Source: Phycisphaerales bacterium
GTDB lineage: Bacteria > Planctomycetota > Phycisphaerae > Phycisphaerales > UBA1924
Direction: 5' to 3'
DNA length: 64,000 nt
Assembly (NCBI GenBank): GCA_029260345.1
Contig: JAJDDK010000007.1
Coordinates: 1-64,000, forward strand
The position numbers and the translations under genes are program-made. The notes below the pieces were generated by a model that was not told the origin of the DNA, searched no databases, and saw nothing but the letters and a program-made list of their open reading frames with translations. This document shows positions 15,504 to 39,697 of the stretch, in pieces; the stretch's first letter is position 1, and every line of letters starts with the position of its first letter.

Positions 15504-16046
15504 TTATTGAGGGTGCTGCTGCGAACGTGGTTCACTGAGAAGATCAGCCGTGCGGCGGTAATACCGCTCCAGCGTGTTGCGCGAGGTCAGAAAGAAAACC
15601 ACATCTATGAAGATGATTCCCGCGTCGATCAGCCATGGAGACGATGGACCGAACGGCGTTGCTATCCGCCAGAACACATGGGCGGCGGCGAGCGCGATCA
15701 GCGAGTTGGCGTGGAACTGGTAGTAGCGATAATGGTTCTCGACGAGCCACTGGTATGCCTTGATGCGTTCGTGCAGGAACACATCGCTCCACTCCGGACG
15801 ATGAAGTCCTGTGGCGTGATGGATCGTGTCGATGATCGCCCAGCGGAGTGCACTCGCCGTCATTCCCGCCGCGATCGAGGCGACGCTGATGATGAGGAAC
15901 CCGCCGATCGACGGTCCGGCGCCGTCCGCTCCGGCCAGCCACGCCGCGACCTCTGGGGACCACTGCCCCAGACCCCAGATCACGATGAATCCGGGGATCA
16001 GGTAGGCGATCAGCAGCCCGAAGTTCCGAGACGAGATGTCCGACAC
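15504..16046 (-). CDS. Four-helix integral membrane protein, hypothetical
   Basis: 180 residues from GTG 16046 (AGGA five bases upstream). Hydrophobic segments lie near FGLLIAYLIPGFIVIWGLG, IGGFLIISVASIAAGMTAS, SLIALAAAHVFWRI and IDAGIIFIDVVFFL. Between them are a conserved-looking HERIKAYQWLVENHYRYYQF and a C-terminal TSRNTLERYYRRT tail. I have seen similar unnamed proteins in mobile islands but know no function. It is transcribed away from the XRE gene at 16132 and with the small gene at 15356. Confidence 0.65.
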   Translation of the reverse strand: MSDISSRNFGLLIAYLIPGFIVIWGLGQWSPEVAAWLAGADGAGPSIGGFLIISVASIAAGMTASALRWAIIDTIHHATGLHRPEWSDVFLHERIKAYQWLVENHYRYYQFHANSLIALAAAHVFWRIATPFGPSSPWLIDAGIIFIDVVFFLTSRNTLERYYRRTADLLSEPRSQQHPQ

Positions 16047-16131
16047 ACGTCCTCATGCGATGGTTGTTCCTGTCGGCATTCTCGCTTGACACTGAAATCG
16101 TGTCAAGAGTGTTTCATCGCATGCTGTGTAA

Positions 16132-16374
16132 ATGGCCACAAAGGCGCAGCACGACCGCCGCTACCGATCGATGCCGCAATTGCTTCGGAATCTGCGTGAC
16201 GAGGCCGAATTGACGCAGCGCGCTCTCGGCGAGCGGCTCAGTCGTCCACAATCGTGGGTCTACAACTGCGAGACCGGGAATCGCCGCGTGGACGTTGGCG
16301 AGTTCTGTGCGTGGTGCGAGGCCTGCGAAATAACTCCGCTCGACGGCTTGAAGCGGTTCCTGCGGCAACGATGA
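16132..16374 (+). CDS. XRE-family HTH regulator, small
   Basis: 80 residues from ATG 16132. A Cro/C1-type helix-turn-helix fills most of it: LLRNLRDEAELTQRALGERL followed by SRPQSWVYNCETGNRRVDVG and a third helical part LDGLKRFLRQR. It is divergent from the membrane protein gene (start codons 85 bases apart), so it may control that promoter and its own. No separate effector domain is present. Confidence 0.75.
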   Translation: MATKAQHDRRYRSMPQLLRNLRDEAELTQRALGERLSRPQSWVYNCETGNRRVDVGEFCAWCEACEITPLDGLKRFLRQR

Positions 16375-16478: not shown

Positions 16479-16513
16479 GGAGACTAAGACTATAGTCTCT
16501 AGACTCAGAGTCT
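16479..16513. promoter_or_regulatory. Clustered palindromes AGACT/AGTCT before an XRE gene
   Basis: A perfect 12-base palindrome AGACTATAGTCT at 16487-16498 sits inside the longer GAGACT...AGTCTC pair, and is followed at 16501-16513 by AGACT-CAG-AGTCT. The array ends 24 bases before GTG 16538. Spaced dyads at this place are what an autoregulating XRE repressor would use, covering the promoter of the next gene. Confidence 0.6.
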
Positions 16514-16537
16514 CGCCGATCTACCTTCGCCAGTCAA

Positions 16538-16777
16538 GTGGCAACGCGACGACTGGCGCAAGAACTTGGGAACGTGCTGCGCGAACACCGCGCCCGCGCC
16601 GGATTGACGCAGGAGGAACTCGCCGCGCTGGCCAAACTCCATCCCACCTACGTCAGCCTTCTGGAGCGGGGTAAGCGGAACGCCACGCTGCAGGCGATCT
16701 GGTCCATCGCCGCCGCGATCGGCGTTTCGCCGAGCCGCCTCATAAAGGATGTCGAAGGCCGGATCAAGCCGTCGTAG
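16538..16777 (+). CDS. XRE-family HTH regulator
   Basis: 79 residues from GTG 16538. The sequence is a textbook Cro/C1 domain: LREHRARAGLTQEELAALAK, then HPTYVSLLERGKRNATLQ and IWSIAAAIGVSPSRLI. It resembles the single-domain regulators of restriction-modification control genes and phage repressors. The palindrome cluster immediately upstream is its probable operator. The convergent hypothetical gene at 16806 follows. Confidence 0.82.
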   Translation: MATRRLAQELGNVLREHRARAGLTQEELAALAKLHPTYVSLLERGKRNATLQAIWSIAAAIGVSPSRLIKDVEGRIKPS

Positions 16778-17138: not shown

Positions 17139-17179
17139 CACTCCTCTGTTGCTGATTTCACACACCTGCTATGGCACAG

Positions 17180-17752
17180 GCTGGGCGGCCGTGTCAAGCG
17201 TTTTGTTGAGTCGAAATATGCGCGTTAAAGCGAATGGCTGGCGCGACTGTCTGTGGAGGGCGCGCACGCGAAGACGTTCTTCCATCACGCGCATACGCTC
17301 GCGTGTTTCGCAGGATTGGCGTGTTTCGCATCTTTCGTGTTCTTGGTGCTCATCATCTTCTTTGCACGATTCGCGTAGTTCGCATCACTCTTGCGATTCG
17401 TGTTCTTCGCACGTTTCGCATTCATCGTGCGCGCAAAAACAACCAACAGTTCAATGTCAACACCATCTTGATTTCAGCGATGCGCGCGTCCTACATTCGA
17501 CCGAAGCTCCGCTTCGGAGAGACGTCTGACACTTTTCTGCTGACTGTTTTTGAATCTGAATGCTCCGGTACGAAGTGAGGATCGTTTCCGAATTGGAGCA
17601 ATCAACATGGTGCTGATGAGGAGGATTCAATTGTCAACGGCAGTGGTCATACAGAGGTGTGACGTTGACAGAAGTGTCAACGGCCGCGTCAACTTCAACG
17701 AACACAGCGTTGTCAACGCTGTGACTACTTTGCAACTACGAGGATCGACATC
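17180..17752. other. Candidate oriT / relaxase control region
   Basis: A 570-base gene-free stretch before the relaxase. 17281-17432 is packed with direct repeats of TTCGCA and TTCGTG, including GTGTTTCGCA twice (17303-17312 and 17321-17330) and TTCGTGTTCTT twice. A 7-bp hairpin CCGAAGC-TCC-GCTTCGG is at 17501-17517. A perfect 9-bp hairpin CACAGCGTT-GTC-AACGCTGTG is at 17703-17723, 30 bases before the start codon. Several TTGTCAAC/GTTGACA copies lie from 17631 on. Direct repeats plus inverted repeats next to a MobF gene are the usual makeup of a transfer origin; the nick site cannot be placed. Confidence 0.45.
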
Positions 17753-20560
17753 ATGCTCAGGATCACCCCCAGCGTCTCGGCCGAGGCGGCGAAGGACTAC
17801 TTCCGCCTGGCCCTCAGCCGCGGCGAGTACTACACCGAAGCCAAGATTCTGAATCAGGAGATCGTCGGCCGCTGGGGCGGGAAAGCCGCAGGGCGGCTCG
17901 GCCTTGAAGGCCACGTCCAGCAGGCCGCGTTCGACAATCTCTGCGACAACGTCAACCCGACCACCGGCTCGCGGATGACGCCCCGCACGCGGGACGACCG
18001 GCGGGCCGGATACGACCTCAACTTCCACGTGCCCAAATCCGTCAGCCTCATGCTTGAGCTCGGCGGCGACGAACGGATCCGCGAGGCGTTCGTGGAGTCG
18101 GTTCGCGAGACGATGCGGGAACTGGAACGCGACGCTCAGACACGTGTCCGCAAGAACAAGGCCAACGACACGCGGACGACTGGGGAACTCATCTGGGCGG
18201 AGTTCGAGCACTTCACCGCGAGGCCGGTGGATGGCGTGCCCGATCCGCACCTGCACATGCACGTCTTTGTGACCAACCAGACGTGGGATCCCGAAGAGAA
18301 GCGGTGGAAGGCGTTAGACCTTGGTGACATCAATCGGGACGCCCCTTACCACCAGGCCGCCTTTCACGCTCGACTTGCCGAGAAACTCGTCAACCTCGGC
18401 TATGGCGTCGAACGCCGCGGTGAATGGTGGGAGATTGAGGGCGTCGATCCCTCCCTGATCGGCCTCTTCAGCCGCCGGACGGAGGAGATTGAGGCTCTGG
18501 CCAAGGAGCGCGGCATCGAGGACGCCGCGACCAAGGCCGCACTCGGGGCCAAGACGCGGGCCAGCAAGATCGCCGTCGCTTCGATGATCGAATTGCGACG
18601 TGAGTGGCTTGGACGCATGAGCGATTCGCAACGCGACGCGATCAAGGCGATCCGCGTGAAGGCGGACCGGACCCGCCAACGCATCATCGCAAAGTGCGAA
18701 CGCACGCTTGATGCGTGCCTTCAGCACGCTTCAGAGCGATTGTTTGAGAAAGCCTCCGTCGTCCCCGACAAGCGACTGCTCGCGGCGGCGTTGCAGCACG
18801 GTGTTGGCCGGATCACGGTCGAATCAATCAAACAAAGGTTGTCAACCCATCTCGATCGCCGCACGTTTCTCCATGCAATGCACGAGCGGCAGCGGATGGT
18901 CACGACGCCAAAAGTGCTCGAAGAAGAGCAGAAGATGCTGTCAACGGTCCGCGAAGGCCGCGGGCAGCACTCCCCATTGAAGCCCGGGCACGCGATCAAT
19001 GACGCGGCGTTGTCAAGGGAGCAGCGGAACGCCGTGCGACATGTGCTGGAATCCACGGACTCTGTGATGCTCGTTCGCGGACGTGCGGGCGTCGGCAAGA
19101 CGCGACTCATGAAGGAGGTCGTTGAGGCGATTCAACGATCCGGCCGTCATGTCGCCGTCGCCGCTCCGACCGCGATGGCGACGCACGACGTGCTTCGAAA
19201 GGAAGGGTTCTCCCACGCTCAAACGGTTGCCCGTCTGCTCAAAGACGCGGACCTTCAGAAAAAGCTCAAGGGCGGCGTGCTGTGGGTGGATGAGGCTGGG
19301 CTTTTGAGCGTCCCCGACCTCCAGAAGCTCATAAAGCTCAGCGAAAAGTCGAAGTGCCGCTTGCTGCTCACCGGCGACACGCGTCAGCATCGCTCGGTGA
19401 TCCGCGGCGACGCGTTGCGACTTCTGGAGACCGAATCCGGATTGAAGGCCGCCGAGTTGTCAACGGTGCGGCGCCAGGAGAGAGGCTTGTACCGCGAGGC
19501 CGCGGAGGCATTAGCGAAGGGCGACTTGTCAACGGGTGTCAACAGGCTCGACGCGATGGGCGCCATCAAAGAGACAAGACGCGAGGCGTTGACAAAGACG
19601 GTCGCCGATGAATATTGCCGCTCAGTCAACGCTGGACGCTCGACACTGATCGTGTCACCGACGCACGCTGAAGGACGGAAAGTCACGGAGGCGGTGCGAA
19701 GGGAGCTCCGCAAGCAAGGGCTGATCGGCACGACGGAACACACGATCGAGCAGTTGCGAAGCCGGCATCTCGCGAAAGCGGAGCGAGCCGATCCCGCACG
19801 CCATCGCGTGGGCGATGTGATCGTCTTCCATCAGAACGTGCCCGGGTTCAGGAAGAGTGAACGGGCCGCCGTTGTCAACGCGAAGGACGGAATTGTCAAC
19901 ATCAGGCGTCAAGGCGAATACGTTGACAAAACGTTGCCGCTCAATCGAGCGAACCACTTCGAGGTCTTTGAGAAGCACTTGCTGAATGTCGCCGTCGGCG
20001 ATGTGGTCCGTATCACTCGCAATGGCCGCACGGTTGACAAGCGGCACTCATTGAACAACGGCGCCCTGTATCCGGTGTCATCAATCGGGAACGACGGCTC
20101 GCTCACCTTCGCTAATGGGTGGCGAACCACGTCCGACTTCGGACATTTCACGCATGGGTATTGCGTGACCAGCGACGCGGCGCAGGGACGCACCGTTGAC
20201 AACGTGATCCTCTCCCAGTCGTCACTCTCCAACTTCGCGGGCTCCCTGCAGCAGTGGTACACGTCGATCACACGCGGCCGCAAGTCGGCGACCATCATCA
20301 CTGACGACCGTGAGCGATTGCTGAAAGCCATCGAACGCGACGCCTCGCGGATGTCGGCGACGGAAATGATGCGAGCAGCAATGACGCCGTCTAAGCAACG
20401 CGGGCTTCTCAACCGCGGAGCCATCGGACGATGGCTGGGACGCAAGCACGATGAACGAATGCGAACAGCGGACCGCGAAGAATGCGACCGCACGCGTGAG
20501 CATCGGAAGGACGAACGCGATCGCGGACTTGATCGGGAGGAGCGACATCGTGAGCGGTGA
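17753..20560 (+). CDS. MobF (TrwC/TraI-type) relaxase-helicase
   Basis: 935 residues from ATG 17753. The relaxase domain (1 to about 290) has paired tyrosines in SRGEYYTEAK, YDLNFHVPKSVSLM, and the three-histidine metal site DPHLHMHVFVTN (H166, H168, H170). A RecD-like SF1 helicase follows: Walker A VRGRAGVGKTRLM near 444, Walker B GVLWVDEAG near 508, and C-terminal YCVTSDAAQGRTVDN and YTSITRGRKSA motifs. It nicks and unwinds one DNA strand for conjugative transfer. The canonical first catalytic Tyr near residue 16-18 is probably replaced by Y27/Y28. The gene carries nine exact TTGTCAAC/GTTGACAA copies (see findings). Confidence 0.92.
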   Translation: MLRITPSVSAEAAKDYFRLALSRGEYYTEAKILNQEIVGRWGGKAAGRLGLEGHVQQAAFDNLCDNVNPTTGSRMTPRTRDDRRAGYDLNFHVPKSVSLMLELGGDERIREAFVESVRETMRELERDAQTRVRKNKANDTRTTGELIWAEFEHFTARPVDGVPDPHLHMHVFVTNQTWDPEEKRWKALDLGDINRDAPYHQAAFHARLAEKLVNLGYGVERRGEWWEIEGVDPSLIGLFSRRTEEIEALAKERGIEDAATKAALGAKTRASKIAVASMIELRREWLGRMSDSQRDAIKAIRVKADRTRQRIIAKCERTLDACLQHASERLFEKASVVPDKRLLAAALQHGVGRITVESIKQRLSTHLDRRTFLHAMHERQRMVTTPKVLEEEQKMLSTVREGRGQHSPLKPGHAINDAALSREQRNAVRHVLESTDSVMLVRGRAGVGKTRLMKEVVEAIQRSGRHVAVAAPTAMATHDVLRKEGFSHAQTVARLLKDADLQKKLKGGVLWVDEAGLLSVPDLQKLIKLSEKSKCRLLLTGDTRQHRSVIRGDALRLLETESGLKAAELSTVRRQERGLYREAAEALAKGDLSTGVNRLDAMGAIKETRREALTKTVADEYCRSVNAGRSTLIVSPTHAEGRKVTEAVRRELRKQGLIGTTEHTIEQLRSRHLAKAERADPARHRVGDVIVFHQNVPGFRKSERAAVVNAKDGIVNIRRQGEYVDKTLPLNRANHFEVFEKHLLNVAVGDVVRITRNGRTVDKRHSLNNGALYPVSSIGNDGSLTFANGWRTTSDFGHFTHGYCVTSDAAQGRTVDNVILSQSSLSNFAGSLQQWYTSITRGRKSATIITDDRERLLKAIERDASRMSATEMMRAAMTPSKQRGLLNRGAIGRWLGRKHDERMRTADREECDRTREHRKDERDRGLDREERHRER

Positions 20561-20936
20561 GCCATTCCTTGATCAATACTTCAATGAATCACCGTTGGAG
20601 CGGCGCAGCCGCGACGATGCGTCGACAGCGAAGCGTTCGGGCGTGGCCGAAGGCTACGTCGCCGCGATCGACCTGCATTTGGCCGACGGCTCACGTGTGG
20701 CGTTGCCGTACGCGACGTTGTTGCGAACGACCTTCGATTCCTCAAAGGGCGTCACATTGGAGTATTCGACCGACACGGTGACAATCACGGGATATCGGTT
20801 GGAGTCGATTTACAAAGCCATCGCCCACCATCGCCTTGCCGAGTTGAAGGCGGCGGGCGAGACCGAAGCGATGTTCTCGAAAAAAGACGGCGGGCCGGTG
20901 GTGACGGCGATTCGTCGTCGGCCCGCCGATGAGTGA
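20550..20936 (+). CDS. Hypothetical protein coupled to the relaxase
   Basis: 128 residues from GTG 20550, preceded by GGAGGAG eight bases upstream and overlapping the relaxase stop by 11 bases, so translation is probably coupled. The protein has an N-terminal polar part (FLDQYFNESPLERRSRDD), then a beta-rich block AIDLHLADGSRVALPYATL and VTLEYSTDTVTITGYRLE, then a helix IYKAIAHHRLAELK. I know no family. Its coupling to the relaxase suggests an accessory role in mobilisation. Confidence 0.65.
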   Translation: MSGEPFLDQYFNESPLERRSRDDASTAKRSGVAEGYVAAIDLHLADGSRVALPYATLLRTTFDSSKGVTLEYSTDTVTITGYRLESIYKAIAHHRLAELKAAGETEAMFSKKDGGPVVTAIRRRPADE

Positions 20937-23094: not shown

Positions 23095-23208
23095 GGGCGT
23101 AGTAACCCCACGAGCACCTGGCCTTGTTTGCGGCCGGGTTGCGGCGCCATGTCCAGGGCGAAAGCCTAAAAGCGTTGCGCCCTTCGTGTTCGTGGGGTTA
23201 CTACGCCC
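23095..23208 (+). repeat. Large inverted repeat / structured RNA candidate
   Basis: A 23-base arm at 23095-23117 (GGGCGTAGTAACCCCACGAG, then CAC) pairs with 23186-23208 with a single variation that is a G-U pair on the + strand. The 68-base interior has further hairpins, including GGGCG...CGCCC and GGCC...GGCC. It ends 20 bases before the ATG of the XRE gene at 23229, so it would be the end of that gene's 5' leader. No target-site duplication is visible, so a MITE is less likely than a folded RNA. Confidence 0.6.
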
Positions 23209-23228
23209 GGCCACCAGGGAGGATCGCC

Positions 23229-24420: not shown

Positions 24421-24701
24421 ACGCCCTCCAGCGGAAATCCGCGAACCCGCCGCGCCAACTCCATGAGATTGGACCGGCCGGCGACATAGCTCAGAATCGT
24501 CTGCGCGGCTTGCAAGGCGCGCGTCACGTCTTCGAGTTCATCCTCTTCGAATTCAAGGCACGGAGCGTCGTTATCAACACCGATGGCGATGGCCACCGTG
24601 TACCGGTGCACATCCTCGGCCTCACGCACGAGGATCCGCGCCACGGCGTGGCCGAGACGGAACGTCTCGACCACGCGCGGAGTGTGAGCAACGTTGCTCA
24701 T
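24417..24701 (-). CDS. Small hypothetical protein in DUF2958 operon
   Basis: 94 residues from ATG 24701, coupled by ATGA overlaps on both sides. The sequence has a beta-rich first half (ETFRLGHAVARILVREAED, VAIAIGVDNDAPCLEFEEDE) and a helical second half (VTRALQAAQTILSYVAG). It sits where 21918-22121 sits after the other IWRN gene. No recognised family. Confidence 0.6.
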   Translation of the reverse strand: MSNVAHTPRVVETFRLGHAVARILVREAEDVHRYTVAIAIGVDNDAPCLEFEEDELEDVTRALQAAQTILSYVAGRSNLMELARRVRGFPLEGV

Positions 24702-24994
24702 CGGCTTTTGGCCTTGGACTTGGCGGCGCCGTTGGATGCCGCCTGCTCGCGATCAATGGCTTGCAGCTCGAAGATGCGAGTGTGAGCCATGTCGAAGGCT
24801 TTGGCCGCAGTTGGCAATTCATCGCGATTGAACGATGTGGTCGATTGCCAGTCGCCGTTCGCGTCTTTGTAGCGCTTTTTAAGCGTGGCGCTGTAGCGGA
24901 TGCGTCCTTCGGAATCGGCGTTGCGCCAGATGGCGGCCTGCACCGATCCAAGGCGGACATGGTCCGCGGGAGGGTTGGAGGTTGAAGTGGTCAT
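24698..24994 (-). CDS. IWRN-motif small protein, paralogue of 22118-22402
   Basis: 98 residues from ATG 24994, first gene of a three-gene coupled operon. The core VRLGSVQAAIWRNADSEGRI, KKRYKDANGDWQSTTSFNRD and FDMAHTRIFELQ are shared with the other copy; the Lys/Ala-rich C-terminus differs. The structured leader at 25002-25215 lies directly upstream with GAAAGGAGT as ribosome site. Function unknown; a nucleic-acid-binding role is only a guess. Confidence 0.65.
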   Translation of the reverse strand: MTTSTSNPPADHVRLGSVQAAIWRNADSEGRIRYSATLKKRYKDANGDWQSTTSFNRDELPTAAKAFDMAHTRIFELQAIDREQAASNGAAKSKAKSR

Positions 24995-25001
24995 CGTTTG
25001 G

Positions 25002-25215
25002 ACTCCTTTCGTCGTCGTTGGTTGAACATGGACCCGTTTCGTTGGCGCGCGCAGGACGGGTCAAGCGAGAAGCCGCCCGAGCGCAGCCGGGGCATCGGCT
25101 GCACAAGGCGCACGCCGCGGAAGCCGACGGCCGCTTGATCCCGGCCGAGCAGCGACGGCAGGGTCCGGGAATGTTCAACCACGTTTCGGCGGTGGAGTCC
25201 AGAGTGCGTTGACAA
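25002..25215. repeat. Structured leader element, copy 1
   Basis: About 210 bases homologous to 32274-32482. TGGTTGAACAT (25019-25029) pairs perfectly with ATGTTCAACCA (25171-25181), closing a domain with hairpins GACCCGT/ACGGGTC (25031-25062), GCAGCCG/CGGCTGC and GGCCG/CGGCC. The end away from the gene carries the shared block GGAGTCCAGA-TGCGTTGACA, which reads TGTCAACGCA...GGACTCC toward the gene. Both copies end at the ribosome site of a leftward gene, so this is probably a promoter-leader unit. It may act as an RNA switch, an autoregulatory RNA target or a transferred control cassette. The remaining 25216-25334 shows nothing. Confidence 0.6.
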
Positions 25216-25334
25216 CCAAATACCTGAAGCCCGCAGAAGCATCTTCGGCTCCATGCAACAGGCTCCCTCCGCAACCAGAATCCATTAGATTGACTTGTCA
25301 CTGTCAATACCTGCGACTTTAGGGAGACCCCAGG

Positions 25335-27629
25335 ATGGGTTGGCTCTTGATAATCGCGATCGGCGCTATTGGCGCTCTGCTGCTCCGCAACATCGCGCGC
25401 AAGTCGCGAGCTGATCAACAATCCAAACAGTCGAGTCGCCGATCGCAGAGCGGTCGTGGTCGTGTTCAAGTTGCACCCGCAATTTCCGTCGAAATCATCG
25501 GTGCGAATAGCGGTCGATTCGGTGAGCACTCAAGAACTGCCGCCAAACCGATGTGGCTCGGACTTGGCGCGAGCCTGGAGGTTGCCGGATTCAATATAGA
25601 GAACCCGCTTACGTACACGGCGTCAAACCGTGACTCGGGAAAGTCATGCGCTGATCCGTCACAGATCGCGCCGTGGCTTCCAGTCAAGCGCGGACCGGAT
25701 CCGCATGGATTGAGCTATTGGCCATGGTACGAACAGCTCACCCCGGAACAGCGATGGATTCATTTGTCGTGGATGGCGAGCGGCCGAAGGACCTTGCCGC
25801 CTTCCGATGGTTTTCTCTTTATTTATTTCTACGGATTGGAGCGACGAGCGCTCGTTGATAAAGCTGATCTTCCGCAAATTGTTCGCGAAGTCGCACGACT
25901 GAAGGCGCTCCATCTCCCAGAGGCCGGAAACGGTCGCGGCTGGAGTTTCCAGCACTACTCGACATCGTTCCTCTGGTTTCTCGTTGCAAGTCAGCCAGAT
26001 CGGTTCCAGGAGCGTGATATCCAAGCGCTTGTCGTTCGGACGCACTCATGGCGTGAGGAGAGTCTCAAGTCCGCTCTGGCGTGGTTTGCCTCCATGAGCA
26101 AGCGATGCCCCTCGTGGATGGCGATGGTCGCTGCCGAGCAGTCGCCACTTGCCACGCGCAGCGTCGTGCGCTCGCGAGTAGCCGATGAATTCGAAGCCCT
26201 TTTCCACAAGCGATTCACCGAGCAATTTGGTGAAGGATTGCAATTGCGGACCGCAGCCCGGCCAACGGCGTGCACCTACCAAACCGCGAGCAATGCCCTT
26301 GATCTGCAGCGATGCGAGATTCCGAATGTGTTCGGCATTCAAAGTCAATTCAAGTCGCTCGCCGCCATGTGGAATAGTTGTGTCGAGGATCTAAGGCGCC
26401 TCAGCCGGCTCGCGGCAAAGACGGACTCGGAAGAGCTGACACCAGAGAATTGGGAGGCCATGCCGCCGGACCTTCGGAAAGGCATCGATCATCCGCTTGC
26501 GGAATCGGTGTGCGCGGCAATTGCAGAGCACACGAATGAGGCCGGGCGCGCATTTGTTCGCGCCAAAGATTTCGCCGGCATCGTGGGCATTGCGGCACGG
26601 GATCGCTACACATTAGCGCAGAGTTGCCGAATCGCCGAAACCGTGGAGCACGCTGGCTACGCGGTGGAGCCCGATGCGCGATTGATGCGCAGCGCGTACA
26701 AGGCGGACGAGTGCTTATCCGTCTTTCTGCGCATGTTCGACCTGCAAGCGTCGCCGAAGCGATATCTCGCTGCGACGTGCATATTGCGCATGGGAACCGC
26801 GATTGCGGCTGCTGACGGAGACGTATCTGACGAGGAAATGGCGTTGCTAACCAATGAGGTGGAACGAGCCTTCGATCTCAATGAGCACGAAGAACGACGG
26901 CTCGAAGCGCTGCGAGAATTGCTTCTGGTTCAAGGCTCCGACATCGCAGCGATCGGCAAGCGACTGCGCGAGTCGCTTGATTCACGACGCCGCGCAGCGG
27001 TTGGTCGATTGCTGATTGCAATTGCGGCAAGTGACGGCGTCATCCACCCAGGTGAACGCAAGGCATTGCGCCGATGCTATCGCGTGCTTGATCTTGCGCC
27101 CGATCAGCTCGACACGGCGCTCGCGGAGCTGAGTTTGGCAGCGGCAGAAGATATGGTCGCTGTCAAGAGTGGCGGCGCACGAACCCAAGGCGAACCAATT
27201 CCGGCGCCAGTCGAAAGCGACGCCCAAGTGGTTCTCAACCAAGCGGCCATCCAGCGCATCATGCTGGAAACGAGGGAAGTTGCATCCATGCTCGCCGAGG
27301 CGATGGGTGTGGAGCAATCGTCATCGGAGAGCCCCCCTCCTCCTCCTGCAAACGCGATTGACGCAGAACCGACGCAAACGGATAAAACTGCCACCGCTGC
27401 GACAATTGCAGGTCCATCTGGTCGGTATGCGGCGTTCTTTGCTGTGCTGATAGAACAGGACGCGTGGCCGCGCACCGAGCTGGAGGCGTTGGCGCGCGAT
27501 CAAGGGCTCATGCTGGGTGGGGCACTTGAAGAGGTGAATGAATGGGCGTTCGAAACAATCGGTGCGGCACTCGTATTTGAGGATGGGGAGACTGTTGTCG
27601 TGGAACGCAGTTTGCTCGAAGAGGTGTAA
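25335..27629 (+). CDS. sngA: Shango defence protein SngA (TerB_N-TerB-TerB_C)
   Basis: 764 residues from ATG 25335. A single N-terminal membrane helix (WLLIIAIGAIGALLLRNIA) is followed by a polar linker, then the TerB_N region (LSYWPWYEQLTPEQRWIHLS, FLFIYFYGLERRAL, about 110-290). A helical centre follows, then the TerB-like domain with two acidic metal-site motifs, AAADGDVSDEE near 490 and AASDGVIHPGE near 563, and a TerB_C-type end (YAAFFAVLIEQDAWPRTELE). A TerB protein with an ATPase and a helicase is the published Shango anti-phage system. The three genes here have 3- and 0-base gaps. The membrane anchor hints at action near the envelope. Confidence 0.8.
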   Translation: MGWLLIIAIGAIGALLLRNIARKSRADQQSKQSSRRSQSGRGRVQVAPAISVEIIGANSGRFGEHSRTAAKPMWLGLGASLEVAGFNIENPLTYTASNRDSGKSCADPSQIAPWLPVKRGPDPHGLSYWPWYEQLTPEQRWIHLSWMASGRRTLPPSDGFLFIYFYGLERRALVDKADLPQIVREVARLKALHLPEAGNGRGWSFQHYSTSFLWFLVASQPDRFQERDIQALVVRTHSWREESLKSALAWFASMSKRCPSWMAMVAAEQSPLATRSVVRSRVADEFEALFHKRFTEQFGEGLQLRTAARPTACTYQTASNALDLQRCEIPNVFGIQSQFKSLAAMWNSCVEDLRRLSRLAAKTDSEELTPENWEAMPPDLRKGIDHPLAESVCAAIAEHTNEAGRAFVRAKDFAGIVGIAARDRYTLAQSCRIAETVEHAGYAVEPDARLMRSAYKADECLSVFLRMFDLQASPKRYLAATCILRMGTAIAAADGDVSDEEMALLTNEVERAFDLNEHEERRLEALRELLLVQGSDIAAIGKRLRESLDSRRRAAVGRLLIAIAASDGVIHPGERKALRRCYRVLDLAPDQLDTALAELSLAAAEDMVAVKSGGARTQGEPIPAPVESDAQVVLNQAAIQRIMLETREVASMLAEAMGVEQSSSESPPPPPANAIDAEPTQTDKTATAATIAGPSGRYAAFFAVLIEQDAWPRTELEALARDQGLMLGGALEEVNEWAFETIGAALVFEDGETVVVERSLLEEV

Positions 27630-27632
27630 GCG

Positions 27633-28937
27633 ATGCGAATTACGGAACGCGAACGTGGGGCCATCCTGAATTCTCTCGGCGCCGGTGTTGTGCCCAATAT
27701 CGGCCTCCACCACATTCAGGTCGGCCGAAAGGCCGAGCTCGACGCCATCCTCTCCGATTTGCAACGGGTGGAAAACGGCGCGGCGTCTATTCGATTCGTC
27801 GTCGGTCGGTATGGGTCGGGAAAGACATTCTTCTTGAATGTGGTGCGAACCGTCGCATTAGAGCGAGGCTTCGTCGTTGCCCAAGCTGACATTACGACCG
27901 ATCGCCGCTTGCACGGGACCGGCGGTCATGCCCGCGGTTTGTACGCCGAACTAATGCGTAATCTTGCCACCCGATCCAAGCCCGAAGGCGGCGGGCTGGC
28001 AAACCTCGTGGAGCGCTGGATCGGCGACCTCGCATATGAAATCAAGAATGCGGGCGGTGACCATGAGGATGTCAAGAAACGCATTCAGAGCGATTTGCGT
28101 CCCGTTCAGGATCTCGTGAGCGGCTACGACTTCGCGGATGTCCTTGCTCAGTATTACACGGGATATGAATCGAGCGATGAGCATCGTCAGGAATCTGCGA
28201 TCCGCTGGCTGCGCGGCGAGTACGGCACCAAGACGGATGCACGGCAGGATCTCGGTGTTCGATCGATCATCGACGACCAGTCGATTTACGAGTACCTCAA
28301 GCTCTTCGCCGCCTTCGCGCGTATCGCCGGATACAAAGGGCTCTTGGTTTCCATAGATGAACTGGCTGTACTTTCTCACCGACTCTATCATCGTGTGGCG
28401 CGCGATCGTAATTATGAGGCCATATTGCGCATCTTGAACGATTGTCTGCAAGGGTCGGTGGAAGGACTTAGCGTGCTGTTTGCCGCCACCGATGCCTGCC
28501 TGGAGGATCCACGACGCGGCTTGTGCAGTTATGAGGCGCTTGCCACCCGCCTAGCGCCCAATCGCTTTGCGGACGATTCGCGCATTGACCTTTCTGGCCC
28601 GGTGATTCGCCTGCAGAATCTGACGCCCGAGGACTGCTATGTCCTCCTCCATAATGTGCGGCATGTACATGCGCGTGGGAAAGCTGAGGAAGCCCAATTA
28701 CCGAATGAGGGCATCACGGCGTACCTTGCAGACTGTAATCGGCGCATGGGCTCTGCCTACTTCCAGACCCCGCGCGAAACCGTGCGTGATTTTGTCGGAC
28801 TCCTCAACGTCCTTGAACAAAACCCTGGTACGGATTGGAATGAGCTTGTTGCGGCGATCAAGACAACAGCCCCAGCAAGTGACGATGAACATGGCGATGG
28901 AGACGGCGACGACGGCCTTGCCTCGTTCCGTTTATGA
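27633..28937 (+). CDS. sngB: Shango ATPase SngB (BrxD-like, DUF2791)
   Basis: 434 residues from ATG 27633, three bases after sngA. A P-loop ATPase of the BREX BrxD/DUF2791 type: opening EREAILNSLGAGVVPNIGL-like region, Walker A VVGRYGSGKTFFLN near 55, then VAQADITTDRRLHGTGGHAR, and Walker B GLLVSIDELAVLS near 240, where the acidic pair DE is followed by a sensor region VLFAATD. It is likely the energy-using switch partner of the helicase encoded next. Position and family match SngB. Confidence 0.82.
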   Translation: MRITERERGAILNSLGAGVVPNIGLHHIQVGRKAELDAILSDLQRVENGAASIRFVVGRYGSGKTFFLNVVRTVALERGFVVAQADITTDRRLHGTGGHARGLYAELMRNLATRSKPEGGGLANLVERWIGDLAYEIKNAGGDHEDVKKRIQSDLRPVQDLVSGYDFADVLAQYYTGYESSDEHRQESAIRWLRGEYGTKTDARQDLGVRSIIDDQSIYEYLKLFAAFARIAGYKGLLVSIDELAVLSHRLYHRVARDRNYEAILRILNDCLQGSVEGLSVLFAATDACLEDPRRGLCSYEALATRLAPNRFADDSRIDLSGPVIRLQNLTPEDCYVLLHNVRHVHARGKAEEAQLPNEGITAYLADCNRRMGSAYFQTPRETVRDFVGLLNVLEQNPGTDWNELVAAIKTTAPASDDEHGDGDGDDGLASFRL

Positions 28938-31190
28938 GTGCCGGAGTTGACGCCCAAACCTGAATGCGACGCCTTTGACCTTCTGGCGCGCGGCGTCCAG
29001 CGACAATTGTGGGACATGGGCTGGCGAGAGCTCCGGCCTATTCAAGCAAGAACAATTCGCGCGTTCGCCGATTCGCCATCGCACGCCGTCATCATGGCCG
29101 AGACCGCAGGCGGCAAGACAGAGGCTGCATTCTTACCGATTCTTTCGGCGATTGCTGAAGAGCCACCCGGATCAATACGGGTTCTTTATGTTGGCCCGCT
29201 CAAGGCGCTCATCAACGACCAGTTTGGGCGGCTTGAAGAGCTTTGTGAAAATCTCAATGTGCCTGTGCATCGTTGGCACGGCGATGTGGACGCGGGCCGG
29301 AAGGCTCGTGTGACCAAGGATCCCGCCGGCGTCCTTCTCATTACGCCCGAGTCAATCGAATCGCTCCTCATCAATCGATCCGCACACCTCGGCCACATGT
29401 TCGGGGGATTGCGCGCCATTGTCATCGATGAGCTGCACGCCTTCCTCGATAGCAGCCGCGGGATTCACCTAGCGAGCGTTCTCACGCGATTGCGGCGCTA
29501 TGTCGCCGCTGGCGAGCCGCGTCCGCGCCTCGTCGGCTTATCGGCGACGATCGGTGATCCCTCTGAAGCGCAGCGCTACTTGGATAAGCATGCCCCGGAT
29601 GCTGTTCAGGTCATAGATGATCCGCATGAATCCAAGGAACTCCGGATGGCGCTTCATTACTACCAAGAGCGCAGGCCGACTGAAGGAAGCGAATCGAACG
29701 GCCGAGAATCGGAAGAATCGGATCATTTCGCCGCGATCCATTTGATGGCGTGCGATCTCGTGGAGCATTGCCACGGGCGCACAAACCTCGTCTTTTGTAA
29801 TGCGAAAGGCGAAATCGAAATTATCGCTGATGAGTGCAATGAAGTGTGCAAAGGCGAGGGGCTACCCGGCTCATTCCTGGTGCATCACGGCTCACTCTCT
29901 CAAGAAATCCGCGAGGACACAGAAGATCGCATGCGCTCATCTCGCCCGTTCACGACGATTTGCTCAAGCACGCTGGAGATGGGCATCGACATCGGCGATG
30001 CGTATTGCGTCGGCCAAGTCGGCGCGCCGTGGTCCGTGACGTCGCTCAAGCAGAGAATGGGCCGCAGCGGACGGCGAGACGATGCGCCACGGCGCTTGCG
30101 ACTGTATGTCAGAGACGATTCCGATCCTGATGCGCGCGACCCCACCGATCGACTTCCGTTCGATCTCCTTCAAACGGTCGCCGTGTGCGAACTCATGCTG
30201 CGCGATCATTGGCTCGAACCGCCGCAGCCCCCGAAATGTGACCTGAGCACGCTCACCCACCAGATGATCAGTGTGATTGCCGAATGGGGCGGTATTCGCG
30301 CTGACGCGCTGTTCAATCGCCTCTGTGCCGAAGGCCCTTTTGAAGCAATCGGCAAGGGACTGTTCGAGTGCCTACTTCGTGAGCTTGGACAGCAAGACGT
30401 CATCAATCAAGCTCCGGAAGGCGACATTATTCTGGGGCTGCTTGGGGAGCGCATTCGAAGCGGGCGGGACTTCTATGCCGTGTTTGAAACCCCGGAGGAA
30501 TACCGACTCGTCCATGACGGCAAAGATCTTGGCACGCTTCCGGCGGCGCTGCTGCCGCAGCCTGAGAGCCATATTGTCTTCGGCGGTCGTCGCTGGATTG
30601 TGGTGATCGTCGACGCGCCCTCCAAGACAATCCACGTCAAGCCGGCGCGGGGTAGGAAACGGCCTTTATTCCTGGGTGCGCCGGGCGACGTGCCGGATCG
30701 CGTGCGCGAGCGAATGCGCGAATTGCTTATTGATCCACCATCACTTTCCTATCTCTCAGAGGAAGCACAAGATCGACTTTCGGTTGCGGCCGCGTCAGCG
30801 CGGGAGGCACATCTGCTCACACGAGGCTTCATGCCAACGAAGGACGATTCATGTCTCATTGTGACTTGGTCCGGCACCCGAACGCAGCGAACCCTCCTCG
30901 CGGCGCTGAGTCGATGCGGCATCGAGACGATTGACTTGCACATCGGCATTCGCTGTAAAGCAGCGACCAAAACCGTGGAAGCAGCACTGAAGTCACTCAC
31001 GTCGGATTTTCCAACCGGGGAAGAACTGGCGCCGTATGTCGCACGACCCATCAATCGAAAGTTCGACTGGCTGCTGAGCGACCAACTTCGGCATCGGTCG
31101 ATTGGCGTCGATCTACTGGATCCGTCGTCGGCGCGCGAATTGGTCGTCGAATTCTTTCACATTCGGGACGGCGCTTCTGAATGCACCTGA
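28938..31190 (+). CDS. sngC: Shango helicase SngC (BrxHI/Lhr-like SF2)
   Basis: 750 residues from GTG 28938, directly abutting the ATPase stop. SF2 motifs in order: Q-region RPIQARTIRAF, Walker A MAETAGGKTEAAFLP, DELH at IVIDELHAFLDSSRG near 163, LVGLSATIG (motif III), TLEMGIDIGD (V) and SLKQRMGRSGRR (VI). The C-terminal 350 residues are like the winged-helix/Lhr-core part of BrxHI and YprA relatives. The protein probably acts on phage DNA or nucleoprotein. Last gene of the operon; it ends 113 bases from the convergent ardC. Confidence 0.85.
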   Translation: MPELTPKPECDAFDLLARGVQRQLWDMGWRELRPIQARTIRAFADSPSHAVIMAETAGGKTEAAFLPILSAIAEEPPGSIRVLYVGPLKALINDQFGRLEELCENLNVPVHRWHGDVDAGRKARVTKDPAGVLLITPESIESLLINRSAHLGHMFGGLRAIVIDELHAFLDSSRGIHLASVLTRLRRYVAAGEPRPRLVGLSATIGDPSEAQRYLDKHAPDAVQVIDDPHESKELRMALHYYQERRPTEGSESNGRESEESDHFAAIHLMACDLVEHCHGRTNLVFCNAKGEIEIIADECNEVCKGEGLPGSFLVHHGSLSQEIREDTEDRMRSSRPFTTICSSTLEMGIDIGDAYCVGQVGAPWSVTSLKQRMGRSGRRDDAPRRLRLYVRDDSDPDARDPTDRLPFDLLQTVAVCELMLRDHWLEPPQPPKCDLSTLTHQMISVIAEWGGIRADALFNRLCAEGPFEAIGKGLFECLLRELGQQDVINQAPEGDIILGLLGERIRSGRDFYAVFETPEEYRLVHDGKDLGTLPAALLPQPESHIVFGGRRWIVVIVDAPSKTIHVKPARGRKRPLFLGAPGDVPDRVRERMRELLIDPPSLSYLSEEAQDRLSVAAASAREAHLLTRGFMPTKDDSCLIVTWSGTRTQRTLLAALSRCGIETIDLHIGIRCKAATKTVEAALKSLTSDFPTGEELAPYVARPINRKFDWLLSDQLRHRSIGVDLLDPSSARELVVEFFHIRDGASECT

Positions 31191-32273: not shown

Positions 32274-32482
32274 ACTCCTTTCGTGTTGTGGTTGAACGTG
32301 GACCCGTCAGGACGCCGCGTCGCAGGCCGGGTCAAGCGAAAGCCGCCCGAGCACAGCCGGGGGATCGGCTGCACAAGGCGTAGCCGCGGAAGCCGATGGC
32401 CGCTTGATCCCGGCCGAGTACGGCGGCAAGGCCCGACACGTTTAATCACATTTCAGCGAATGGAGTCCAGAATGCGTTGACA
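32274..32482. repeat. Structured leader element, copy 2
   Basis: Homologue of 25002-25215. GTGGTTGAACGTG (32288-32300) can pair with CACGTTTAATCAC (32437-32449) as 13 base pairs if the RNA is read on the + strand, two of them G-U. On the - strand the same two sites are A-C mismatches. Inner hairpins GACCCG/CGGGTC and CAGCCG/CGGCTG are kept despite changed loops. An outer pair of the CAGCCG stem is G-U only on the - strand, so the transcribed strand is unresolved. The element is followed leftward by the ribosome site of the ardC leader peptide. Confidence 0.6.
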
Positions 32483-33025
32483 GCTCTTGTAGTTTCGTAG
32501 GCACGCAACCGAATGCGCAATTATCGTTCACACACACTTAAATTGCCCATACAGACCGGAAACACCTTCAGAAATACTTAATTAAGATAATTAGGAGACA
32601 AATTAGCTATAGACAGCAACATTCAATGCATGCCATATTGCAATTATGATTAATCTATTCTGCAATAGAACGCGTACTGTGAAGAATTCGTTGCGCGGCA
32701 CTCGGCGGAGCGATGACCCACTTCGCTGCTTCTTCGAGCGTACGCAAGAGAATCCAGAACTTCTGTCAGCCCTTTGCGATGCGCTCAATCGAATTGACAA
32801 TTTCGATCAATCTCTGGGCAACGGCTCGGTCACAAGTCTGAAGCTCACACCCGAAGTGGGCGCTCACGCTGCTCGATGGGTGGATCACGAACGTTAATTC
32901 TCTCTGCCATATCAACGAATGGCTTGAGAAATTCTCCAATTTTTTGATTTTTTTCCTCGTATTCCACTCAGCAGCCTCGTAATTCGTGACAGAGGAGTAC
33001 CTGGGCATTCAAGGAGGGTTGTGAG
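32483..33025. other. AT-rich intergenic region
   Basis: Over 500 bases, clearly more AT-rich than its surroundings (for example AATTAAGATAATTAGGAGAC near 32580). One doubtful rightward ORF lies in it (32646-32897). It probably holds promoters for the sigma-factor gene and for the leftward leader. A replication or regulatory function cannot be excluded. Confidence 0.4.
32646..32897 (+). CDS. Doubtful small ORF resembling the N-terminus of the next gene
   Basis: 83 codons from ATG 32646 without a good ribosome site. The middle reads LRGTRRSDDPLRCFFERTQE then NPELLSALCDALNRID. The sigma-like protein at 33026 starts with a similar ARGTPDFAERVGFALLVQENP then DEAIELFAEHTLRI. At DNA level GCAAGAGAATCC is shared. 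It may be a small relative of that N-terminal module or a decayed partial duplication. Confidence 0.3.
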   Translation: MINLFCNRTRTVKNSLRGTRRSDDPLRCFFERTQENPELLSALCDALNRIDNFDQSLGNGSVTSLKLTPEVGAHAARWVDHER

Positions 33026-35137: not shown

Positions 35138-36640
35138 ATGCACTCATCGCGAAGAAAGTCGCATTCGCCGCGCTGGCGACCGCGCCGCAAGTGCCGTCCC
35201 GAGCCGATCAACATCGAGATTGACCTCGATCGGAAGCTCATTCGATTCAACCATCAAGGCGACGGCGTGAGCTGGCGCGATGCGCTCGGCGGTGGCATTC
35301 TGGTCCTCGCCGACAGTGGTAGCGGAAAGTCAAGTGCCCCCTTACGAACGATTTTGGCTTCCGCACTCGTATCTCGTGCTTCGGTTGTTATTCCGACCGT
35401 CAAACCGCAGGACGCCAAACGCTATGCGAAAATCGCGAAAAGCTTTGGATATGCGCCGCACGTCTTCCGAATCGGGAGCGACCACTTCAATCCCATCGGG
35501 TTTGCGCAGCGCAGCGGCACGGCGGCCAACCTCGCCGAGAACCTCACCGCCGCGATCATGCTCCCCGTGCATCGCCTTCGCCGCGAAGGCGGAAGCGGCG
35601 ACGCTTTCTGGCTTGCCGATGGCGCCCGATACGTCCGCCACCTGGTGACGATATTCAACTTCGCGGGCGTGACTATCTCCTTTCGGCTCATCAACGACGC
35701 GCTTCTCAACCTCCCACGGTCGGTTGAAGAAACGCGCGATCCTGAATGGCGGAAGAGCTCCGCAGTCTTCGAGGCGATCGTCGAGGCGAAGAAGCGTGTC
35801 TTCGAGCAGACGGACCGGGAGGATCTTGAACAGTCCGCCCGCTTCTACCTTGAGACCATCCCGACGACGCCGGAGAAGACGCGTGCCTCGACCGTCGCGA
35901 CGGTGTGCGCGGCCCTCGATCCGCTTGTACACGGCGAAGTCGGCGCCACCTTGAACGGCGACCGCTCGTCGCTCAATCCGACCGCGCTGCTGGACGCGCC
36001 TGCAATACTGATCCTCGATGCGCCATTGCAGGAGTGGGGCCGCGTCGGCGCCATCGTTCAGCGGCTCATCATCTCGGCGATCCAGCAGGAGATCCTGCGC
36101 CGCGACGTAGCGGCGTCATCGCACCCCGTGATGCTGCTGATCGACGAGTACCAGGAGTTCCTTGAACCCGAGGACGACGCCAAGTTCATGCGAACGGCGC
36201 GGGATCGCCGCGCGTTCATGACGATCGCATCCCAGTGCGTCGGCGCGATCCGCGATTCATGCAGCGCCGCCCGCGACCCCAAGGCCGCCGCCGACATGCT
36301 CCTCGGGCTCTGCGGCGTCAAGTTCTTCGGCGCCACGACGGATCCCGAAACGATGCGCTTCGCCTCGGAGGTCTTTTCTTCCACCCTGCAGCCGCGCGTC
36401 AGCTTCGGCGACAACGAGTCCTCGAACGACAAGGCGAAGGGCAAGGGCGGACGCGGACGCTCCACCAACATTTCGCGGGACTACCAGCCCGACGTGCCCC
36501 CCATCGAATTTCAGAAATGCCGCCGCGGCGGCCCGGAAAACGGCTTCATTGTCGAGATGTTCTGTTCCGTCTCGGGGCGCACGTGGCGCTCCACGCGCAG
36601 GCCTTCAATCAAAGTTGCGTTCCGTCAAATCACGGACTGA
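35138..36640 (+). CDS. Coupling-protein-like conjugation ATPase (TraD/TraG/VirD4 superfamily)
   Basis: 500 residues from ATG 35138. A basic N-terminus is followed by LVLADSGSGKSSAPLRTILA (Walker A near 60), TVKPQDAKRYAKIAKSFG, NPIGFAQRSGTAANLAENL, a helical all-alpha insert, and Walker B HPVMLLIDEYQEFLEPEDD near 333. Then AFMTIASQCVGAIRDS and FFGATTDPETMRFASEVFSS, typical of T4CP/TraM-recognition ATPases. No N-terminal membrane helices are present, so it may rely on the membrane protein encoded next. It would feed the relaxosome into a secretion channel supplied in trans. Confidence 0.78.
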   Translation: MHSSRRKSHSPRWRPRRKCRPEPINIEIDLDRKLIRFNHQGDGVSWRDALGGGILVLADSGSGKSSAPLRTILASALVSRASVVIPTVKPQDAKRYAKIAKSFGYAPHVFRIGSDHFNPIGFAQRSGTAANLAENLTAAIMLPVHRLRREGGSGDAFWLADGARYVRHLVTIFNFAGVTISFRLINDALLNLPRSVEETRDPEWRKSSAVFEAIVEAKKRVFEQTDREDLEQSARFYLETIPTTPEKTRASTVATVCAALDPLVHGEVGATLNGDRSSLNPTALLDAPAILILDAPLQEWGRVGAIVQRLIISAIQQEILRRDVAASSHPVMLLIDEYQEFLEPEDDAKFMRTARDRRAFMTIASQCVGAIRDSCSAARDPKAAADMLLGLCGVKFFGATTDPETMRFASEVFSSTLQPRVSFGDNESSNDKAKGKGGRGRSTNISRDYQPDVPPIEFQKCRRGGPENGFIVEMFCSVSGRTWRSTRRPSIKVAFRQITD

Positions 36641-38271: not shown

Positions 38272-39507
38272 TTATCCCACTTCTCCCATGATCGCGGCCG
38301 CTTTGGCGTAGTCCCGCTCCGCGTATACCTGGGTCACGGCGAGGCTGGAATGGCCGAGGACCACCTGGGCCGCCTCGATGCCGAATTCCTTCGCAAGAAA
38401 CGTCGCTGCGTTATGGCGCAATTGATGGGGATGGAAGCGATGTGCTTTACGCCACGCTTTCAACCCTTGTTCGTTCAAGCATTTTGGCGGCTGGAACGCC
38501 TTGCGGCAGGCGTAATCAATGGCCCGGCGGTAGGAATTCGTGTCGTAGCGATCGCGGGGCTGCTTCTTCGGCGCGCGCTTACGGTTTGTTCCCGGTCGAT
38601 TGCCGCAGGACTGCGGTGTGCGCCGATGCTCAGATAGTCTGGCCCGGCGCTCGGCCTCGGCTTCCGCCGGACTGAAGCAGAACGTGAACGGCGAACGGCT
38701 ATCCAAGAATGGCGTTAGAGCTGCCTGCGCCTTCGGTCCAATGTAAATGCGCCGCCGCTTGCCGTGATGCTCCGTCTTGTGGACGGACGGCTCGTACACC
38801 CATACCCGGCCCGACCGTTCTACGTCACAGGGCCGGAGTAGGACGACCTCCCCCGGTCGCATACCGGTAGCGATCTGCAGTTTGATCATCGCGGCGATCT
38901 GGTGCGAGCAAACATTCCGGACGCGTTCGACGATCCGCTCGTCCGCCGGCTCGATGGGATCGGCCTCACGTGCGTCAGTGCGGCCTTTTCGGAGTCCGGC
39001 CACCGCTTGAAGCGCGTGCAGCGTCTCGCCCCGCACCAGCTCATTCTCGACGCCCCACTTGAACAAGCGTTTGATGCGACCAATGCGTTGATTGATGACA
39101 CCGCGTGAAAGCCCGCCGTCAATCATGGCCTGCCGAACAGCCTTCAGCCTCAGCGGCCCGAACTCATCGACGATCGTGCATCCATGCAGGTCTAGGACTT
39201 CGCGAACAGAGAGCCGAATATCTTCGACTTCGCTCGTCGGTGACCCATTCTTGCGGTAGTGAACTTGAACAAATTCCCAGTACGCGACGAATAGCTCATT
39301 GATAGTCAAAGCGCTACGGTTGCCGACCAACTGTTCAGGCAATCGTCGCTTCAATTGCCATTGAACGACTTCTTCGTGATACCGATTTTGACTTTCCGTA
39401 GTCCCGTGCTTTCCGAGGTAAAAATCCTTGCCGTCCAAGGTCACGACGGCCTGACCTGAGGCCTTGTGGAAACGGTACTTCGGAATACGGGCTGAGAGTC
39501 TGGGCAT
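38272..39507 (-). CDS. Tyrosine recombinase / integrase of the element
   Basis: 411 residues from ATG 39507, with GGAGGAG six bases upstream; the in-frame ATG at 39531 is less likely. The N-terminal SAM-like core-binding part (TINELFVAYWEFVQVHYRK) is followed by the catalytic domain with Arg in ATGMRPGEVVLL, the H-x-x-R box HPHQLRHNAATFLA, LGHSSLAVTQVY with the final His, and the nucleophile Tyr in QVYAERDY. The gene lies between the tRNA-Asp 3' end and a DUF1580 gene, so it should recombine at that tRNA. Confidence 0.93.
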   Translation of the reverse strand: MPRLSARIPKYRFHKASGQAVVTLDGKDFYLGKHGTTESQNRYHEEVVQWQLKRRLPEQLVGNRSALTINELFVAYWEFVQVHYRKNGSPTSEVEDIRLSVREVLDLHGCTIVDEFGPLRLKAVRQAMIDGGLSRGVINQRIGRIKRLFKWGVENELVRGETLHALQAVAGLRKGRTDAREADPIEPADERIVERVRNVCSHQIAAMIKLQIATGMRPGEVVLLRPCDVERSGRVWVYEPSVHKTEHHGKRRRIYIGPKAQAALTPFLDSRSPFTFCFSPAEAEAERRARLSEHRRTPQSCGNRPGTNRKRAPKKQPRDRYDTNSYRRAIDYACRKAFQPPKCLNEQGLKAWRKAHRFHPHQLRHNAATFLAKEFGIEAAQVVLGHSSLAVTQVYAERDYAKAAAIMGEVG

Positions 39508-39623
39508 GAGCGGCTCCTCCAAGCTCGCCAAGCCGGTATGTACCGGTTTGGCGTGACTTGTCGGCCGCTCTGCCTTACGCCGGCAGGAAGCGCAAACGCT
39601 TCGGCGTTCGGATCTTAGGGAAA

Positions 39624-39697
39624 CGAGGCGGACGGGACTCGAACCCGCAACCTCCGGATCGACAGTCCGGAACTCTAACCAATTGAGCTACCGCCCC
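39624..39697 (-). tRNA. tRNA-Asp (anticodon GTC)
   Basis: The reverse strand folds as a 74-base tRNA: acceptor GGGGCGG/CCGCCTC with discriminator G, D-arm with TAGCTCAATTGG, anticodon stem CCGGA/TCCGG around CTGTCGA (anticodon GTC), and T-arm GCGGGTTCGAGTCCCGT. Its 3' end points toward the integrase gene and is the likely attachment site. CCA is not encoded. Confidence 0.95.

Follow-up and report, generated by a model that had tools for sequence, protein, structure and literature searches.

An exactly repeated seven-base word in and before the relaxase gene of an integrated element in a Phycisphaerales bacterium

Described repeat systems and the relaxase locus

Four described systems of short repeated DNA words come closest to a locus in a Phycisphaerales bacterium (GenBank assembly GCA_029260345.1), in which the word TGTCAAC recurs 16 times in and before the gene of a MobF relaxase-helicase on an integrated mobile element. 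We refer to the whole 64,000-nucleotide stretch analysed (contig JAJDDK010000007.1, positions 1 to 64,000) as the window, and positions are those of the window unless another locus is named.

As presented in passages of PMC9283540 and PMC6550527, the L5-type stoperators of cluster A mycobacteriophages are 13-bp sites distributed genome-wide, mainly in one orientation, at promoters and in short intergenic spaces. The relaxase locus resembles them, so described, in that a short asymmetric site is present in numerous copies and in that motifs are similar rather than identical between related phages or elements; it differs in that the site is only 7-8 bp long, spans 2.7 kb in both orientations and lies mostly inside one gene, and in that no repressor like theirs, a monomeric protein that stops elongation, was found here. 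The core of the L5 stoperator is TGTCAAG, which resembles TGTCAAC, although the passages just named do not confirm it.

The stbDRs of R388 are described as 9-bp repeats around a promoter beside the origin of transfer (oriT), bound by the small protein StbA and affecting both transfer and stability (passages of PMC3098194). A repeated word beside an oriT, here a candidate one, is a shared feature; the tight direct repeats of that system are not, since the present copies lie 10 to 1129 bases apart in mixed orientation, and no StbA homologue was recognised among chosen open reading frames (ORFs) in Pfam, PHROGs or NCBIfam, no query with StbA itself having been run. The relaxase of R388 is a MobF enzyme. 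The clt locus of pWTY27 comprises 7-bp repeats next to a transfer gene and reaching 16 bp within it, and short repeated words (7-9 bp in clt) at a transfer gene are thus common to both; clt differs in being a compact locus served by TraB, an FtsK-like double-strand translocase (passages of PMC3583192). No such TraB was seen among the ORFs scanned here, which were not all of them, and the coupling protein is TraG-like. Finally, the sps sites of pIJ101 are 12-bp palindromes in 2-3 copies inside spdA2, the gene of their own binder, and are rare on chromosomes (passages of PMC4170104). Both cases present putative protein-binding sites embedded in a gene and a repeated amino-acid mark in its protein, the difference being that here a 7-8-base word is present in sixteen copies at a relaxase gene.

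Each element of the reading that we prefer below appears to have a precedent among the stbDR, clt, sps and stoperator systems as these passages present them, whereas sixteen exact copies across a relaxase gene are not described in the passages of PMC3098194, PMC3583192, PMC4170104, PMC9283540 or PMC6550527. The titles and abstract openings of open-licence literature yielded nothing alike on relaxase-gene binding sites, Planctomycetes relaxases or Phycisphaerae mobile elements, and, of 885 text matches there to the 8-mer TTGTCAAC, the 15 listed look unrelated.

An exact word at the cost of the relaxase protein

The relaxase gene (17753..20560, plus strand) encodes 935 amino acids, with a TrwC domain at residues 11-290 (Pfam, E 2.9e-69) followed by an AAA_30 helicase core at residues 420-608 (E 6.8e-44), the succession of TrwC and TraI-type helicase that defines MobF. 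The initial annotation listed TTGTCAAC at 11 positions in and before this gene; all 11 are indeed exact copies, seven forward (17631, 17710, 18839, 19457, 19526, 19872, 19893) and four reverse (19588, 19922, 20033, 20195), and the local excess that it reported is borne out, with 11 copies in 2572 bases (17631-20202) against 0.064 expected. The whole window contains 17 copies, where 100 dinucleotide shuffles give a mean of 1.83 and a maximum of 6. This density does not extend to the genome assembly (3,402,878 bases, 8 contigs, 96% complete), which holds 85 copies in 3.40 Mb; the reversed word, used as a control, occurs 54 times. A host-wide signal such as a Chi, uptake or KOPS-like word was rejected, as the genome density is not high by this comparison.

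The shorter core TGTCAAC occurs 16 times between 17455 and 20201 (288 times genome-wide), five before the gene and 11 inside it, 11 forward and five reverse. Its flanks are loosely kept: T precedes and G follows in 11 of the 16 copies each, so that the extension to TTGTCAACGG/GC previously noticed for many copies stands as a tendency and not as a rule; the commonest extended form is TTGTCAACG. The word itself is exact. Its 21 possible single-base variants are scarce in 17401-20560, where TGACAAC occurs six times, CGTCAAC three times, TGTCACC twice and four others once each; five of the six TGACAAC sit within GTTGWCAAC palindromes, outside which TGTCAAC far outnumbers TGACAAC, and 16 of the 17 TGTCAA sites in 17455-20201 end in AAC. 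When words were ranked along the window in 2500-base steps, this was the strongest 7-mer and 8-mer of all; for 6-mers it is narrowly outscored by a low-complexity AAGAAG stretch at 53.7-57.5 kb.

Before the gene, copy 1 (17455..17461, plus strand, as are all copies unless noted) lies upstream of a hairpin CCGAAGCTCCGCTTCGGAG followed by AGACGTCTGACA (17501..17531, plus), which by eye is a candidate oriT or nic region. Copy 2 (17632..17638) follows in the leader, copies 3 (17664..17670, minus) and 4 (17675..17681) fall within an inverted repeat CGTTGACA-GAAG-TGTCAACG (17663..17682), and copy 5 (17711..17717) occupies the centre of a perfect 10-1-10 palindrome, CACAGCGTTG-T-CAACGCTGTG (17703..17723), with 29 bases between its end and the relaxase ATG. 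When 15.9-20.6 kb was searched for inverted repeats (arms of 8 or more, spacers of no more than 12), five distinct ones emerged by raw count, three of which belong to this word family (16085, 17663, 17703). Immediately upstream of the oriT-like region, degenerate TTCGCA/TTCGTG words form a run at 17298-17435.

Inside the gene, the first 1087 bases, including the whole TrwC domain, are free of the word. Copies 6 (18840..18846), 7 (18939..18945), 8 (19458..19464) and 9 (19527..19533) all read Leu-Ser-Thr; copy 10 (19537..19543) begins 10 bases past copy 9, and copy 11 (19588..19594) is on the minus strand. Copies 12 (19873..19879) and 13 (19894..19900) are 21 bases apart, and copies 14 (19922..19928), 15 (20033..20039) and 16 (20195..20201) are again on the minus strand.

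We shuffled synonymous codons within the gene 5000 times, holding the protein and the codon usage fixed. The gene has 9, 11 and 14 copies of the 8-, 7- and 6-mer; the shuffles gave means of 0.69, 1.10 and 3.79 and maxima of 4, 7 and 11, and none of the 5000 matched the observed counts. Codon bias had been discounted earlier from the varied frames and orientations of the word, and this conclusion holds: the copies use all three frames and both strands, and neither codon usage nor the protein sequence accounts for the excess. The sites lie at poorly conserved codons. Their residues match six relatives of the same clade (see below) in 28% of cases, against 49% at other residues, and among circular shifts of the site mask over residues 356-830 only 1.9% score as low against these relatives and 0.2% against eleven other homologues. 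None of 12 relatives compared reads Leu-Ser-Thr at the four sites that do so here, and the sites carry no insertion relative to the six clade relatives. Because codon shuffles never reach the observed counts and the site codons give residues mostly missing in relatives, selective pressure appears to fall on the DNA word itself.

The same features bear on the alternative that the word was spread without function by copying or mutation, for example by template switching or short gene conversion. Exact copies with few near-misses would fit recent copying, as would the loss of family residues at the sites and the GTTGTCAACGGTGCG shared, in inverted relative orientation, by the copies at 19457 and 20195. 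Set against this are the lack of insertions at the sites, the lack of any 7- or 8-mer of similar strength in the rest of the window other than in low-complexity or repeat-protein stretches, and the related words in sister elements, and we judge such spread improbable.

The cost of the exact word to the relaxase protein suggests a DNA-binding protein that uses the gene as a landing strip. We tentatively prefer the reading, to which we give somewhat less than an even chance, that a sequence-specific protein recognises TGTCAAC (mostly as TTGTCAACG) and thereby acts on the oriT-relaxase segment of an integrated mobile element, the likeliest action being repression through operators in the leader and roadblocks in the gene. 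The palindromic sites at 17663-17682 and 17703-17723, just before the start codon, would then be strong operators and the eleven in-gene copies extra sites that retain the protein on the gene, and the retained protein would block transcription while the element is quiescent, akin to stoperators in L5-like phages.

Related words in sister elements

The relaxase protein was searched against 163 genomes of the family and 400 sampled from the order. Its closest matches are the relaxases of loci L002 (55% identical) and L003 (54%), the window's own locus being L001. Counted in homologous relaxase loci, as the initial annotation had proposed, TTGTCAAC is absent from 33 of 35, L012 and L027 having one copy each. 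In a tree of 31 relaxases, seven genes (L001, L002, L003, L031, L032, L004 and L005) form a clade with full support, within which L002 is the sister of the window's gene with moderate support (89/83). By eye, tails like that of the candidate oriT precede the relaxases of L002, L003, L004, L005, L024, L031 and L032.

Words related to TGTCAAC are present in several of these sisters. Among 36 loci, the peak number of TGKCAAC per 150 bases is 6 in L005 and L032, 5 in L004, 4 in L001 and 3 in L002; the other 31, L003 and L031 included, reach at most 1. In L004, L005 and L032 these words crowd together in the leader, 400-550 bases ahead of the start codon. One aligned leader site reads GTTGACA in L004 and L005 and GTTGCCA in L032, and a second aligned place reads GTTGACA in L005, GTTGCCA in L032 and neither in L004. 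The L002 region has 18 copies of YGGCAAC against 1.5 expected from dinucleotides, the top score of about 43,000 degenerate words there, and at the place matching copy 7 L002 reads TGGCAAC (MLATIRE for MLSTVRE here). Applied to 33 genes (the 36 loci less three dropped as too short), the codon shuffle gives as best words GTTGACA in L001 (11 against 0.97, 10^-8.0), GGCAAC in L002 (12 against 2.3, 10^-5.3) and CAACGC in L031 (10 against 2.1, 10^-4.2), with genes outside the clade reaching up to 10^-4.5. The excess in L001 is secure and the word of L031 is at noise level; the enrichment in L002 is likely to be real, at moderate strength, because its word neighbours that of L001.

The window's genome encodes a second MobF relaxase (C2:159417-162137), which is 43% and 27% identical over two pieces; it holds one TGTCAAC and no word above 10^-3.0, and three further relaxases hold none above 10^-3.2. 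Peptide patterns found no close relatives in genome_contigs or viral_contigs, from which this genome's own records may have been excluded. Plasmid relaxases were at most 39% identical among the 15 matches listed, with all counted records below 60%, and none of the four plasmid relaxase regions that were inspected contains TGTCAAC. A triple-site pattern matched in 7 of 150 family genomes, in two of them (G058 and G131) at relaxases; it is unmatched in the window's own genome, whose sites are of mixed orientation.

The leader clusters also bear on the main rival explanation, in which the words make up a locus that acts in cis on transfer or segregation and where a partition-like or translocase protein loads near oriT, like StbA on the stbDRs of R388 or TraB and TraA on clt in Streptomyces plasmids. 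In its favour, the words are short and exact, occupy both strands and adjoin a hairpin that resembles an oriT. The clusters of L004, L005 and L032 stand well before the start codon and not at it, and stbDRs beside oriT and clt repeats at or in a transfer gene offer precedents (passages of PMC3098194 and PMC3583192). The clt loci described in PMC3583192 are nevertheless compact (54 and 175 bases), whereas the present sites extend over 2.7 kb and mostly within a gene; neither a StbA-like nor an FtsK-like protein was seen among the ORFs scanned, a partial set, and the TraG-type coupling protein (35138-36640) has no homologue in the 20-40 kb compared of the L002, L004, L005, L031 and L032 elements. 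We regard this locus type as unlikely, if less so than the other rivals.

Several further arrays were seen in these loci and in viral contigs. A second word array, approximately GCGGAGAAT-N5-GGAACTCA at about 60-base spacing, runs from the oriT-like region to the relaxase start in L004, L005 and L032, with fewer copies in L002 and L003, and no 7-mer ranks above GAGTTCC in the leaders of L005 and L032. IMG/VR contigs chosen by a two-copy pattern (119 stretches, hence a selected set, with identities assigned by eye from translations) include a tandem repeat (L160), a duplicated stretch (L182) and an AT-rich, phage-like group with dispersed TTTTGTCAAC (L110, L112 and L175). The metagenomic viral contig L072 has nine TGTCAAC in 290 bases (354-643), adjoined, by eye, by terminase-like ORFs; L048 and L054 (genome G067) carry intergenic 21-base repeats with GTTGACACGAYAATTNCGCGC, those of L048 adjoining an ORF read as miaB-like.

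Candidate binders and the weight of the reading

An XRE-family regulator of 80 amino acids with an HTH_31 domain (16132..16374, plus strand) is a candidate binder that fits in part. An operator-like inverted repeat, CTTGACAC-N7-GTGTCAAG (16085..16107), stands before its gene, and closer homologues of the regulator keep it at the same place. With E values up to 1e-7, the regulator has matches in 49 of the 400 order genomes, its own included, and 30 loci were fetched. The 11 that are full-length and at least 55% identical (own included) all have GTGTCA 32-33 bases before the start, nine of them reading GTGTCAAG facing TGACAC or a variant. The remaining 19, more distant or partial, lack GTGTCA, and several show other palindromes, often at a similar place; among them, L203 matches at 62% over 50 residues and its start was not placed. 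By this comparison the regulator's own site appears to be GTGTCAAG, which has TGTCAA in common with the relaxase word and differs in its last base and spacing.

We consider it quite unlikely that this regulator is the binder, controlling itself through CTTGACAC-N7-GTGTCAAG and the relaxase through the TGTCAAC sites. The shared core and its conservation before the closer homologues would favour such a role, as would a further GTGTCAAG at 17191 and the GTTGTCAA half-sites of a distant homologue (L213). The relaxase sites, however, fail to match the operator in half-site or spacing: the operator ends in AAG, against the AAC of nearly all TGTCAA sites of the relaxase region, and its TGTCAA cores are separated by a gap of 9, against 4 or overlap in the leader palindromes. 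The 19 loci without GTGTCA also speak against it. A home-made profile, run on a single 20-kb piece from each of L004, L005, L032 and L031, finds no XRE with an E value below 0.7, although a 43% XRE homologue is encoded some 39 kb away from the relaxase of L032. The neighbourhoods of 13 XREs hold at most four TGTCAAC each (L222, L230), though only two of them include a nearly full-length relaxase match and one a fragment, and four of the 13 adjoin a homologue of the divergent gene at 15504-16046 (minus strand), a further point against this role. The regulator is still a candidate, but the in-gene words are better read otherwise.

A second XRE gene (16538-16777) is preceded by GACTATAGTC-like palindromes at 16480-16515, which we take to be of the kind used by controller proteins of restriction systems. 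Three related XRE genes share a similar leader, TGTCCAGG ... CCTAAAA ... CCGGCCACC, which may be a structured element of RNA or DNA; it lies at 23130-23220 in the window, at about 17337-17440 on the reverse strand of L037 and at 12440-12550 in L041.

A small gene follows the relaxase (20550..20936, plus strand, GTG start assumed) and has relatives after many homologous relaxases. The longer ORF at 20451-20936 has no DNA-binding domain recognised in Pfam, PHROGs or NCBIfam, and neither the folded small-gene product (pLDDT 76) nor a folded 98-residue protein at 24701-24994 (pLDDT 86; best PDB match only E 0.1), both of them conserved, gave evidence of DNA binding. Across the pieces compared, the relaxase and this small gene are alone in being shared by all six other clade elements (the small-gene match in the L032 element is at E 4e-5 only), which would suit recognition of the word, in single-stranded form during transfer, by the relaxase-helicase itself, the copies serving as extra loading or pausing sites; the oriT-like tail CTGACA, which resembles TTGACA, would suit it too. 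Conjugative transfer is strand-specific, whereas the words stand on both strands, and other relaxases of the family lack them; we hold this explanation to be very improbable.

Elsewhere in the element, an integrase (38272-39531) adjoins two tRNA genes at 39624-39889, and an ArdC-domain protein is among the genes around the relaxase. A TerB-domain protein, a BrxC/D ATPase and a DEAD helicase lie in a row at 25335-31190, perhaps as a defence cassette. Two similar structured leaders at 25040-25220 and 32320-32490 read GGGTCAAGCG ... CGCTTGATCC, then GGAGTCCAGARTGCGTTGACA; stems like theirs precede the XRE gene of L037 and, within L012-L018, a number of the relaxases. The word had been said to start structured leaders at 25208 and 32476, which is correct for the first, an exact copy, while the second has only the 7-mer, as GTTGACA.

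That the word is the site of a DNA-binding protein, as the initial annotation suggested, is for us the best reading, given its exactness, its excess, its use of both strands and all frames and the leader palindromes, from which we infer binding and repression alike. Several results weigh against it. No protein could be tied to the word as its binder, the XRE regulator fitting only in part, and a promoter scan of the leader (17160-17800) found no sigma-70-like promoter. L004, L005 and L032 do not count as three independent cases, because they are close relatives in the tree; the score of L002 alone would fail correction over all 6-mers and 33 genes; that of L031 does not exceed what the top words of unrelated homologues reach; and L003, of the same clade, lacks related words, with two GKCAAC in the stretch counted. 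The 11 forward and five reverse copies are unlike the mainly one-way L5-type stoperators, and operators tend to vary, exact words with few near-misses being unusual for them. Exactness and mixed orientation thus count somewhat against ordinary operators or stoperators, and the leader palindromes count for them. A loading site or an evasion signal, which the initial annotation also suggested, may apply but gains no support here.

A bolder reading, which we regard as doubtful, is that the relaxase gene itself is the cis-acting locus: a word array would be written through the coding sequence at the protein's cost, its binder would mark, silence or load the transfer region, and the word would drift between elements (TGTCAAC, YGGCAAC, GTTGMCA) along with that binder. 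If the recognition word is real, selection on it has altered the protein that a transfer gene encodes, and it would offer a handle on how an integrated element silences its relaxase or marks its DNA. Words that exceed codon-preserving shuffles may, moreover, be a route to cryptic cis-acting sites.

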